Source of the DNA: Halichondria panicea
Lineage: Eukaryota; Porifera; Demospongiae; Suberitida; Halichondriidae
Direction of reading: 5' to 3'
DNA: 64,000 bases
Assembly: GCF_963675165.1 (NCBI RefSeq)
Contig: NC_087383.1
Coordinates: forward strand, 6,178,839 to 6,242,838
In this document: positions 6,395 through 45,106 of the stretch, piece after piece
Layout: every line of letters begins with the position of its first letter
Position numbering within the stretch: position 1 is the stretch's first letter
Translations under genes and position numbers: made by a program
Notes under the pieces: generated by a model
What the model saw: only the letters and a program-made list of their open reading frames with translations
Told to the model about the DNA's origin: nothing
The model's database searches: none

Positions 6395-6800
6395 AATTGC
6401 AGTGTGTTTGGACGCTATTATAGCGTATAGCATATCGAATGCTTTTAACTGTGTGCATAGAAAGGTCAACACAATGAGCTATTCCCTATAATTATAACAG
6501 TACCATAAAGGTCGCGTGTAGAGTTCGTGCAAGTTCAAGCTATTCCCCAAAAATTAAATGCGCGAAAACGTTTCTAACGGTCATTTCGCGAAATTTGACT
6601 CAAAATACTCATCCCAAACCTTCGTCTGGGATGGCCATTTATACCCACTATACGGCACTATAATTATATACGGTACGAAGAGCAAGCCACAAGTATTGTT
6701 TATAGTTGTTAAGTGCCATCAACACGATTAAACGTATTCTGACTTGTTCAGTTTACTATAATTATATACACCCTTGAGCACTGAAGTGCTAACCTTCAGT
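6395..6800. repeat. Dispersed repeat, also at 41225-41420
   Basis: Segments here (ACAAAATTGCAGTGTG, GCGTATAGCATATC, GAGCACTGAAGTGC) recur in the same order at 41225-41420. The order is broken by a rearranged block that reappears at 41460-41620. The pair is useful because this copy has TATAATTATA at 6757-6766 where the other copy has only TATA (41352-41355). Confidence 0.6.
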
Positions 6801-6816
6801 TGAAGAATGGAGAAAT

Positions 6817-7563
6817 TCCCTCGTGCAAGAACTTTGAAGCAAAAGAGAGGATGGGCGTTTATTCAAGATAGGCATATTTTCGATTTTCGTGTGTCACAAC
6901 TATATTACTTGTATTGAACGAGTTAAAAACAAAAATAAGAGAGATTTTTCACAGTAGCGGGCAGCATTTGATAGCAAATAGACTTGCCATTATTATAAAT
7001 TAAAAACCTTTGTGAATGAACCAAACCAGCAGAAAAGTTGACCCTTTGCGATCTAACTATTGCGTTCTGGCAAGGATCATGTGTATTTACTAGAGAGATA
7101 AAAAATAAAAATGTTGAGAGAAAATTAATGTAAAGGAGAAAATGCATGCAAATGATGTTGCTATTATAGCTAAATATTAAGTGTTATTCTGAATTCTACG
7201 TGTGTTTATGTTTTCTGTACGCAGACGAAAGTTGGGCATGTCTGGTCAAGGAGAACATCAAAGTAAAGTATGTTCTTTCGAATGTGCTTCCCCAGAAACC
7301 GTTAACTGCTATATCTTGGTGATGGTCCAAGATATAATTATAGGGCCACTCTCAGATCTTTCTATATATACTTCAATGGTAGTGACCCTCTTCAGTTCTG
7401 ATTATTATTATACATGCAGACTGTTATATACATCGTAAAATAATAGTGATCACTACTATTTTACGATGTATATAACAGTCTGCATATGGAACTTACCAGT
7501 TACTTTGGACCTCCTTGACTCAACAGTCCCTTGGCCCTATACCCCTATATATAATTTGGCAAG
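6817..7563. repeat. 0.75-kb dispersed repeat, copy A, ending in a 72-bp palindrome
   Basis: Colinear with 35026-35765 over its full length, and more weakly with 27280-27500. It contains a near-perfect 72-bp palindrome at 7414-7485 that is shared by both long copies. This copy has TATAATTATA at 7333-7342 where copy B has TATATA. Confidence 0.75.
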
Positions 7564-7622
7564 TCAGCAATCCCCCGACATGTACTGCACATGCTGTATC
7601 AGCTAACTGTATACTAACTTAC

Positions 7623-7727
7623 CATTGACAGCCACGTTGTGCTCCATGATGAGGTACTTGATAGTGTCCAGGTGCCCCTCTCTGACTGCCACTCCTAGTG
7701 GAGTTAGTCCATCACTGGTCACAGCTC
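7623..7727 (-). CDS. Ankyrin-repeat exon
   Basis: A 105-nt exon, phase 1-1, with acceptor CACTATAGGAG and donor GTAAGT. It encodes one ankyrin repeat (AVTSDGLTPLGVAV, then REGHLDTIKYLIMEHNVAVN). Its protein is identical or nearly so to the exon at 2147, so the duplication is recent or the copies have been homogenised. It is followed 5' by an intron of about 18 kb that contains the whole CACTA-like element and the 10-16 kb repeat cluster. Confidence 0.8.
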
Positions 7728-8540
7728 CTATAGTGGTGAGTCAAAGGTCAGAAGTGTGGAAGTGTACGTGATAATTAATGATAGTACAGTGATAATGGAA
7801 TAGATACGTACAAACGAAATCTAGTTACTACAGTAGAACCTCGCTAATTCCAGACTAGACCCCATTCGAATACATGAAATTTCCAGATTAACAGCTATGC
7901 TCTATATACAGCTTTCAATCTGAATAGCTCACCGTTAATGAGAGCTCTTCAGATAAACAGTAAGTTACAGTAATGATTTTTAGCTTCGGGGGATGCTTGA
8001 GCACGTACCCTGAGCCTATTGCTAGATACGCTACTGGGGCATGCGCATAATGGAGCAATAATAATCAGCTAATGTAACCAAGCCTTCTTATTGAACACCT
8101 ATAGCTTCCCTGTCCCATACTCCACTTACCGAAATGTACTCACAGTAAGTGGTGTACCCAAGACATACACAATGAGTTATGGAGGGCCTAACATTAATTT
8201 GATCATTAATATTGTTGAGACGTACACACTTAACCGAATAGCCGCGGTTGACACTTTGAAGCGTCAATATGTGAATAGCTGGTAGCCGCGGTTGATGCTT
8301 TGAAGCGTCAACCGCACATTACTCTACTGTTAATTAATTTGTGGTGAGCTACAACCTTCCAGAGCTCCACAGCTTTGCAAGGCTTCTATCGAAGGTCAAC
8401 AGAAGCCGTACTGAGTCCGATCACCATAGGTTAGCAATCAATAATTTGCTGAAATTTTTATGTGAAATTTGTATTTCAATATCAATCTCAAAAGTGAACA
8501 TACATTATAATAAATACAATTACAATTAATTCTATGGTAC
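7728..8540. other. AT-rich intron with a possible Tc1/pogo-type end and a short direct repeat
   Basis: Near 7850, TACAGTAGAACCTCG resembles the outer end of pogo/Tigger-type miniature elements; the matching right end was not found. At 8239-8312 a stretch containing GCCGCGGTTGA and TTTGAAGCGTCAA is repeated twice in tandem. No coding region is recognised. Confidence 0.4.
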
Positions 8541-8543
8541 AAC

Positions 8544-8735
8544 AATGACTAAGAGGCTGTACACAGGGGATGAGGTACTCCTAGGTATCCTGGATAGTAG
8601 TCACAGTGAGTAGACCTTCTCAGACCCATACGATGGTAGTGGTTCCATGGCAGATAGCAGTGACGATAGTTTCACAGACCTGCATGAGGAAGAAGGAGTA
8701 TTACCAACCAAGCAGACCACCTCTAGAATCAATTG
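8544..8735 (+). pseudogene. Possible transposase N-terminus, acidic, interrupted by a stop
   Basis: An ATG at 8544 opens a frame encoding TKRLYTGDEVLLGILDSS. After an in-frame TAG it continues as an acidic Asp/Ser-rich segment (DPYDGSGSMADSSDDSF). Acidic, Asp-rich N-termini of this kind are typical of piggyBac-like transposases, but the segment is too short to assign and no downstream catalytic core is present. It could also be an unrelated decayed gene. Confidence 0.3.
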
Positions 8736-43096: not shown

Positions 43097-43201
43097 CATT
43101 GATGTCTATATTGCACTCTGTGATAAGGTACTTGATAGTTTCCAGCACCCCCCAACTGACTGCCTCTCCCAGTGGAGTTAGTCCACCATTGTTCACAACT
43201 C
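43097..43201 (-). CDS. Ankyrin-repeat exon
   Basis: A 105-nt exon, phase 1-1, with acceptor CACTATAGGAG and donor GTAAGTTAG. It encodes VVNNGGLTPLGEAVSWGVLE followed by TIKYLITECNIDIN, one ankyrin repeat. It directly follows, in phase, the larger ankyrin exon at 43726-44018. The intron between them contains about 370 bp of TG/CA repeat. Confidence 0.85.
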
Positions 43202-43235
43202 CTATAGTGGTGAGTTAGGGAGCATTGACACGTAT

Positions 43236-43607
43236 CGTGTGTGTGTGTGTGTGTGTGTGTGTGTGTGTGTGTGTGTGTGTGTGTGTGTGTGTGTGTGTGT
43301 GTGTGTATGTGTGTGTGTGTGTGTGTGTGTGTGTGTGTGTGTGTGTGTGTGTGTGTGTGTGTGTGTGTGTGCGCGCGTCTGTGTGTGTGTGTGCATGTGC
43401 GTGTGGGTGTGGGTGTGGGTGTGGGTGTAGGTGTGGGTGTGTGTGTGTGTGTGTGTGTGTGTGTGTGTGTGTGTGCGTCTCTGTGTATGTGTGTGTGGGT
43501 GTGTGTGTGGGTGTGTGTGTGGGTGTGTATAGGTGTGTGTGGGTGTGTATGTGTGTGCGTGTGTTTGGGTGTGTGTGTGTGTGTCGGCGTGTGCGTGTGT
43601 GTGTGTA
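43236..43607. repeat. Long (TG)n microsatellite in an ankyrin intron
   Basis: Almost pure TG for about 135 bp, then TG with GGGTG interruptions. In the minus-strand transcript it is a CA-rich tract ending about 35 nt before the acceptor of exon 43097-43201. The ORFs of Cys-Val or His-Thr across it are artefacts. Confidence 0.95.
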
Positions 43608-43725
43608 TCACTAACAATGGCAGTCAGACCCACTAGACTACACTAATTCTATACGTACGTTTTAGTTCAGCTATGAATTGGAGATAATACGGCCTGTTAC
43701 AATCATGACACACACACTGACTTAC

Positions 43726-44018
43726 CTAGGTCACACTGTCCAGTTGCCATCAGTAACTGGACACACTTCAGGTATCCATAGCAGCAGGCAAAGTGCAGGG
43801 CAGTGTACTTAGCATTAGTCTGTACATTGATATCGATGCCATCTTGCTGTGTGAGTATCTTCACTACATCAGGGTGTTTGTTGCAGCATGCCCTATGGAG
43901 AGCGGTCCATCCATATCTGTCCCTCCAGTCTACAGGAGCTCCTCTAGCCAGCAGCCTCTCCACATCGTCCACACGACCATCACGAGAAGCATTATAGAGT
44001 TGCTCACCCAGATCATGA
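43726..44018 (-). CDS. Ankyrin-repeat exon, 2.5 repeats
   Basis: This 293-nt exon starts after a CACTGTAG acceptor (phase 2 in) and ends at CCTAG before GTAAGTC (phase 1 out). Residues read HDLGEQLYNASRDGRVDDV, an N-terminal cap-like helix, then YGWTALHRACCNKHPDVVKI, then KYTALHFACCYGYLKCVQLL. These are canonical ankyrin repeats with TALH turns. Its phase-2 start matches the phase-2 end of the kinase-loop exon at 46876-46983, so the two could be joined in one transcript. An ATG upstream in the same frame (44066) could alternatively be a start, but the strong acceptor argues for an internal exon. Confidence 0.85.
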
Positions 44019-44564
44019 CTACAGTGTATTGTGGGAGGAGGTAAACAATGAAGGGCAGAAATCATCATTATTATGTACCTACAAATGACAATGAGTAATC
44101 TCAGTCTCCAATTAGTGGTGGTGAGGAGTGAGTGGGTGTATTATAGAGGATGTGACTGTATTGACCACAATCTTAGGAGCTAGCCTTCACTTGCTAGCTA
44201 TACCCACATCTATAGACACCAGAGGAGACTGCAACTAATTAACCATCACTTATTTAGGTAACTCATTAGTTTCTGAGGCTGTCATCTAAATAAGTAATAC
44301 AGTCATCTTTGCTTCTATAGCACGAGTTATACTATTATACAGTATAAACAATACATGTAGTGTTAGGAGTACATTATGGTCAGTCATTATTGGACAATAG
44401 AGTGTCTGGATTCATAGATAAGGAGTACTGTATTCATTGTGGCCTCTGAGATATGGTCACCTCAATGTACACAGCCATTCCACCAAATGTTCACCACTTA
44501 GTAAACCACAGATAAGGAATTGGAAACGGAAGTCCCTCAAAATAATGTTCACCACTTAGTAAAC

Positions 44565-45106
44565 AATAGATTATAGAGTTAGAGAAGTTACATTGAATCT
44601 GCAATGGATCCTCGAAACTATTCGCGTTACTTATGAACGAGGCTGTTAAGCAATTAATTTTTGCCGGGTAACTCCCTTAAAATAAGAAAGTTGTGTTTCC
44701 TCGAGACATCATAATAATTTTATGATAATTATGATGGCTGACGGACTAGGCGTGTTATAAACATATTATGTTTATAACAAATAATTATGTTTATAACACG
44801 CCTAGTCCGTCAGCCACATGTAGCACTTATAATGACTGACAACGTACACCCAATAAAAAAGATAAATTATCTAGTAAAGTCATAAGTTCCCAAGGCTGTT
44901 TTAGAGCGTGCTAGTTATAACTACTACAATAGGTATAGACCTTGAAATAATTATAAGTAAGTTGCACGGACTAAGCAGCTATTTGTAGTTTATTATGCAC
45001 TGTGTGTAGAAATAGGTATTGTTGTGGCTCCATTAAACCACAGCATAGCGCGGATGATACTCGAGGGTACTTTCGTTTCCAACCCCTTTAAACCCTCAAC
45101 CTATGG
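44565..45106. mobile_element. Diverged copy of the CATAGATTGAAGAG TIR family (inverted) with a 30-bp palindrome
   Basis: The reverse complement follows 38643-39156 through TCGAGTATCATCCGCG, AGTCCGTGCAACTTAC and GTTCCCAAGGC. It carries ATAATTAT at 44947-44954 where both other copies have ATAT. A perfect 30-bp inverted repeat (arms 44735-44764 and 44786-44815) replaces the corresponding interior. Confidence 0.65.

Follow-up and report, generated by a model that had tools for sequence, protein, structure and literature searches.

A recurrent 4-bp micro-insertion at ATAT as the probable source of an over-represented palindrome in the Halichondria panicea genome

Why is one AT-only palindrome, ATAATTAT, so abundant in a 64,000-bp stretch of the Halichondria panicea genome (NCBI RefSeq assembly GCF_963675165.1, contig NC_087383.1, positions 6,178,839 to 6,242,838, hereafter the window), and why do related copies of the surrounding sequence so often differ by its presence? 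An initial annotation, made from the letters of the window, proposed that this word and the longer TATAATTATA mark a recurrent insertion of 4 or 8 bp. In the comparisons described here ATAATTAT does behave as a recurrent insertion, yielding what may be read as two TA copies on either side of a short palindromic filler, and it probably arises by a sequence-specific micro-insertion in which AATT is placed at the centre of ATAT to give AT-AATT-AT. For the sample analysed, the comparisons establish that the word is in excess and dispersed, that the step is exactly 4 bp and the empty site ATAT, that G is infrequent at position −1 and that 13 of the 15 decided sites are gains, together with the rate. 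The process may still be active.

The initial count of about 16 copies in the first 10 kb of the window was 16 on recount, and the whole window holds 87 copies of ATAATTAT and 30 of TATAATTATA, where dinucleotide content predicts 3.0 and 0.26. Counting was extended to a 262,838-bp sample consisting of the window and 20 fetched stretches (362,838 bp were read overall), in which contig c7 is made up of stretches L001 to L008, the window and L009 to L016, and L017 begins contig C1. The sample contains 401 copies of ATAATTAT against Markov expectations of 11.6 (order 1) and 41.6 (order 3), far above the background with which the initial annotation had suggested comparing it, and the word ranks first by order-3 z-score among 8-bp palindromes. 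Similarly, 497 copies were counted in 312,838 bp, and a later 50 kb of contig C1 (five stretches) holds 66 against 1.5 expected. Genome-wide, there are 100,191 copies in 131,455,214 bp, about one per 1.3 kb, whereas the reversed word occurs 5,899 times; TATAATTATA occurs 22,686 times and its reversed word 474 times. Four other all-AT palindromes reach 20,459 (ATTATAAT), 12,782 (AATTAATT), 10,639 (TTAATTAA) and 9,139 (TAATATTA) copies. Counts this far above both the Markov expectation and the reversed-word control rule out chance from AT-richness. The copies are also dispersed. Around ATAATTAT, 796 oriented flanks have a base composition close to background past ±3 bp, and with no conserved sequence beyond that distance the word was rejected as part of a longer repeat or miniature inverted-repeat transposable element; the spacing of copies shows only some short-range clustering. 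The immediate neighbours are less neutral, G standing at −1 in 4.4% of cases beside ATAATTAT compared with 14.7% beside ATAT in the sample, and genome-wide G adjoins ATAATTAT at 11,077 of 200,382 flanks.

The nature of the difference between copies emerges from alignments of repeats, in which the window region is rich, repeated exons included. Self matches, copies below 75% identity, pairs less than 300 bp apart, and events whose placement was ambiguous by more than 12 bases or whose context was of low complexity were dropped; nearest-copy and rate counts used alignments of 78–99.5% identity and at least 80 columns, and identical contexts were merged in the event, polarity and later-50-kb counts. 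Most of the statistical weight comes from clusters of local paralogues, which leaves the events not fully independent. The nearest copy of 208 filled sites was identical in 155 cases, substituted in 15, exactly 4 bp shorter in 23 and otherwise changed in length in 15, and 20 of the 23 copies shorter by 4 bp read ATAT. Of 257 ATAATTAT sites, 46 showed a gap of exactly 4 bp, compared with 155 of 3,358 AT-only words at a distance from the motif (odds ratio 4.5, p 1.4e-13). Lengths of 1, 2, 3, 5 and 6 bp lie at about the control frequency, with no rise, and 8-bp gaps at 9/257 (3.5%) vs 62/3,358 (1.85%) in the AT-only controls; as it is mainly the 4-bp class that is raised, general indel-proneness is ruled out.

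Left-normalising of gaps made the underlying event class visible, the gaps in a first list of 4- and 8-bp differences within the window having lain in differing registers. After normalisation there are 179 context-distinct 4-bp insertions, 31 of which read TAATTA with 2 bp of placement ambiguity and have the layout TA-AT-TA, a duplicated TA flanking a short filler. All 31 are flanked by A..T; normalisation itself keeps T before and A after out of this class, such events falling into others (e.g. three TAATTAA), and the fairer figure, with those three added, is an ATAT empty site in 31 of 34. In the later 50 kb, where 5 of 164 events had already been seen and were left out, both new TAATTA events are flanked by A..T (2/2, a small number). 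Tandem repeat slippage was rejected on the placement ambiguity of the TAATTA events, which is 2 bp and not at least 4. The initial annotation had taken TA as the empty site and the 4-bp form as a trimmed 8-bp insertion. Insertion was borne out, whereas the 4-bp form proved commoner than the 8-bp form (31 vs 6 context-distinct sites) and its empty site is ATAT.

More distant copies used as outgroups indicate gain at 13 of the 31 sites and loss at 2; a further 4 are mixed, 8 are represented by a single pair and 4 are without an outgroup. For other lengths, the gain-to-loss counts are 37:68 (1 bp), 62:34 (2 bp), 21:8 (3 bp), 12:1 (5 bp), 18:9 (6 bp) and 12:20 (8 bp). Across 949 ATAT targets there were 22 4-bp insertions, of which 15 yielded ATAATTAT; the rate is 0.73 per unit divergence, compared with a median of 0.045 over 135 4-mers (about 16 times higher). 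The 15 events lead to an estimate of about one gain per ATAT for each unit of divergence along one lineage. ATAATTAT no longer contains ATAT and so escapes a second such event, accumulating until mutation erases it. When the eight substitutable bases are taken as the route of loss, the estimated ratio of filled sites to ATAT is about 0.13, while 401/1850 = 0.22 is observed; gain and decay alone thus give an abundance of the observed order.

Individual sites illustrate both length classes; those within the window are listed without strand unless one is given. The 4-bp examples of the initial annotation were exact: TATAATTATA at 7333–7342 aligns with a 4-bp gap to TATATA, its empty counterpart at 35539–35544, and ATAATTAT at 44947–44954 aligns to ATAT in two opposite-strand copies, at 38800–38803 and 63800–63803 (both minus strand). 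ATAATTAT at 40416–40423 has one copy that is 4 bp shorter (c7 149255, window 40417), and at 42414–42421 three copies are 4 bp shorter and none is filled, the more distant copy also being empty (c7 151253, window 42415). The proposed 8-bp class fared less evenly. None of its four comparisons aligned as one clean 8-bp gap, whereas clean 8-bp events with ATAATTAT do occur elsewhere, at 6 context-distinct sites, of which two are copies of the same site. For TATAATTATA at 6757–6766, the aligner took another path against 41352, where TA is read and the flanks CTA and TACACCC match by eye; another copy has TATATA (+4), and the site polarises as a loss. For TATAATTATA at 38307–38316 (placed at 38317 by the initial annotation), the copy at 28086 has TA and the right flank alone aligned. 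For TATAATTATA at 27421–27430, the matches at 7274 and 35472 are imperfect, and a copy outside the window has TATATA, a 4-bp difference. At c7 185522, three states occur among copies, AGTACA, AGTATATACA and AGTATAATTATACA (that is, TA, TATATA and TATAATTATA). Because one site shows all three, the 8-bp class may represent two 4-bp steps, TA to TATATA to TATAATTATA, which is the simpler path at c7 185522, 6757 and 27421. A single 8-bp step is doubted on account of the three states at c7 185522 and the +4 copy at 6757; other 8-bp sites, e.g. c7 241642, show no +4 intermediate.

The insertion at ATAT stands within a wider bias. Among 153 non-tandem 4-bp insertions, 100 carry a palindromic 4-mer, where about 27 would be expected, and 12 of 18 new ones in the later 50 kb do so (small numbers). 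A large number follow the pattern XY to XY-rc(XY)-XY, rc being the reverse complement (CATGCA 23 events, TATATA 11), a form to which ATAATTAT does not belong; words of this form are enriched 2.1-fold, compared with 1.36-fold for the class with other fillers, and ATAATTAT stands alone in abundance. Polarity is 9 gains to 1 loss for CATGCA (13 of 23 undecided) and 23 to 1 for other palindromic 4-bp insertions (22 of 46 undecided). The change CA to CATGCA constitutes a second micro-insertion class, with A or C before it in 21/23 and G or C after it in 21/23, G before and T after being excluded by normalisation. The change TA to TATA was seen in 40 events, with C or G on both sides in 33 of them, and TA to TATATA in 11, normalisation removing A before and T after from both. 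Palindromes of 6–10 bp are enriched as a class, 1.29- to 1.89-fold, even when AT-only words are left out, and AGCTAGCT, CTAGCTAG, CATGCATG and TGCATGCA stand out among those enriched.

How could ATAT acquire AATT? Formally, placing AATT at the centre amounts to doubling the central TA and separating the two by AT, and our leading guess, held tentatively, is a staggered cut followed by fill-in, A-tailing and joining. A cut at the central TA would leave 2-nt 5′ overhangs; filling in both ends would duplicate TA; one untemplated A added to each 3′ end would then supply the AT filler on joining. A TA-cutting enzyme of the Tc1/mariner type, free or domesticated, is a candidate for the cut. It is conceivable, if somewhat doubtful, that an undescribed site-specific activity of the animal germline repeatedly opens ATAT and reseals the site as ATAATTAT, leaving a palindromic scar of 4 bp which it is then unable to cut, in which case the genome would be a record of enzyme action without any mobile element.

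Several observations weigh against a micro-insertion specific to ATAT and against its cut-and-fill mechanism. The initial annotation had expected the word to be more indel-prone than other AT-rich words, which is true of 4-bp gaps but hardly of indels in total (38/208, barely above the AT-only mean of 15.5%), and several other 8-mers, some overlapping ATAATTAT, have a higher 4-bp gap fraction. The later 50 kb is also enriched for ATTATAAT (22 vs 1.5) and AATTAATT (15 vs 1.8). Loss is the apparent direction at two of the 15 decided sites, 6757 among them, and 16 of 31 are undecided; the gain bias is not unique to ATAATTAT, as shown by the 3- and 5-bp counts above and by 19:6 for non-palindromic 4-bp insertions, and the polarity of palindromic and non-palindromic 4-bp insertions differs only at p 0.08. 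Neither an element nor an enzyme that makes the cut came to light, no search having been aimed at the latter. Cut and fill-in does not account for palindromic 4-bp insertions of other kinds, CA to CATGCA among them. A-tailing predicts an AT filler at any overhang, yet A-XY-AT-XY-T is strongly enriched only for XY = TA (30-fold), the values for other XY being 2.1- to 2.6-fold for AA/TT and CA/TG, 6-fold for CG (6 copies) and 0.5- to 1.2-fold for the rest. Finally, the data come from one genome and one assembly, and the comparisons rest on its repeat copies.

Replication template switching, in which a few bases are copied by folding back, is a possible though doubtful source of the 4-bp step. 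At ATAT, which would be its hottest site, ATA would be copied, AT taken from the complementary strand and synthesis resumed at TAT. The general excess of palindromic insertions and the many events and enriched words of the form XY-rc(XY)-XY speak for such a process, palindrome expansion by this route is reported in rad27 yeast (PMC5677150), and it fits the other palindromic insertions better than cut-and-fill does. ATAATTAT itself can be fitted in only if one base is allowed as a spacer, and the T on its right is then left unexplained; one-sided fold-back needs no such T, yet A..T flanks accompany 31 of 34 TAATTA-type events. An upstream G, which would aid the return, is present in only 4 of 27 CATGCA/GCATGCA events.

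It is improbable that the insertions are excision footprints of a TA-target mobile element that leaves one base per end, A and T, between the duplicated TA. The target does resemble the Tc1 insertion consensus AYATATRT, as given in PMC9635669, and at c7 135499–135811 (about window 56661–56973) a 307-bp stretch bounded by TA on each side corresponds to CCTATAATTATAATG in the other copy, with no inverted repeat evident at its ends. Against this, some 100,000 scars would demand equally many insertions and excisions. The initial annotation had suggested a scar left on excision of a TAA..TTA-ended transposon. Apart from the 307-bp case, no such element was seen in at most the first 91 of 108 chained large-insertion pairs (many from one place), and in the listed part of 395 inverted-repeat pairs flanked by TA, 77 of which begin with A, no family stood out as recurrent, both lists coming from the 262,838-bp sample. 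As far as these listed insertions and inverted repeats go, a TAA..TTA element was set aside, and the footprint of a rare or vanished element is possible.

Less probable still is the upkeep of a highly iterated palindrome (HIP) by selection or methylation-linked repair, as proposed for HIP1. What was counted is indeed one dispersed palindrome in large genome-wide excess over its reversed word, with flanks near background, an extreme case for a single palindrome, and its nearest copies are substituted less (15/208) than AT-only words (12.5%). Several other words are equally low in substitutions, however, e.g. AGCTAGCT (0/51), and many copies differ from their relatives by the exact 4-bp step. 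Among the 24 one-substitution neighbours of ATAATTAT in 312,838 bp, ATTATTAT (129) and ATAATAAT (130) are high and the remaining 22 range from 5 to 38; without those two, the neighbours total 439 vs about 232 expected (by subtraction), as decay predicts. An assembly or sequencing artefact is very improbable: the data do come from a single assembly, but filled states are common to diverged copies, some with substitutions, and the pattern is present on two contigs.

Other features were observed in the sequence around these sites. Ankyrin-repeat exons lie at L016:238–474 and window 7606–7740 (minus strand), and similar exon stretches with alignable introns recur along this part of contig c7. A protein search with one open reading frame of the window brought up 118 relatives. 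A reverse transcriptase open reading frame (RVT_1) at window 28790–29677 (minus strand) belongs to what looks by eye like a non-LTR (long terminal repeat) element. Insertions at c7 79208–80118 and 110860–111768 have TTAA at their ends and CCCTTT termini and may be piggyBac-like, judging by target; other insertions in the sample have TA-CAGTG ends. Contig C1 opens with telomere-like CCCTAA repeats (L017:1–410), which, like the ankyrin exons and the reverse transcriptase, are consistent with an animal genome.

A process that put one fixed 4-bp insert into one 4-bp target tens of thousands of times would leave an unusually clean mutational signature. Such a signature lends itself to counting, to dating and to tracing between species, and the enzyme or repair reaction behind it is constrained by both target and product. 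The case would also show that mutation pressure can largely account for the massive excess of one palindrome in an animal-like genome, and the wider palindromic 4-bp bias allows a direct test between fold-back copying and repair by cut-and-fill. A literature search, with subscription papers mostly outside it, recognised none describing ATAATTAT, TATAATTATA or the process, which is weak evidence of novelty.

Four known systems invite comparison. Tc1/mariner-type footprints consist of a TA duplication with a short filler. That shape, together with a TA-centred, AT-rich palindromic target, is shared here; the differences are that no element is established, that there is one main filler (AT), that the A..T flanks are so constant (31/34) and that about 100,000 copies exist. 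The palindromic tetranucleotide microsatellites (TGCA)n and (AGCT)n have a 4-bp unit and are enriched in the sample, whereas ATAATTAT does not repeat in tandem, and the unit inserted is absent from its empty site. Template switching in rad27 yeast likewise creates or lengthens palindromes, with 16-bp arms in the example of PMC5677150, compared with 4-bp steps here, the main one fixed in sequence and target. The nearest published idea is HIP1 of cyanobacteria, also a short palindrome hugely over-represented and dispersed, for which methylation-dependent mismatch repair has been proposed (PMC4390886); ATAATTAT differs from it in being AT-only, in occurring in an animal-like genome and in its 4-bp insertion step.

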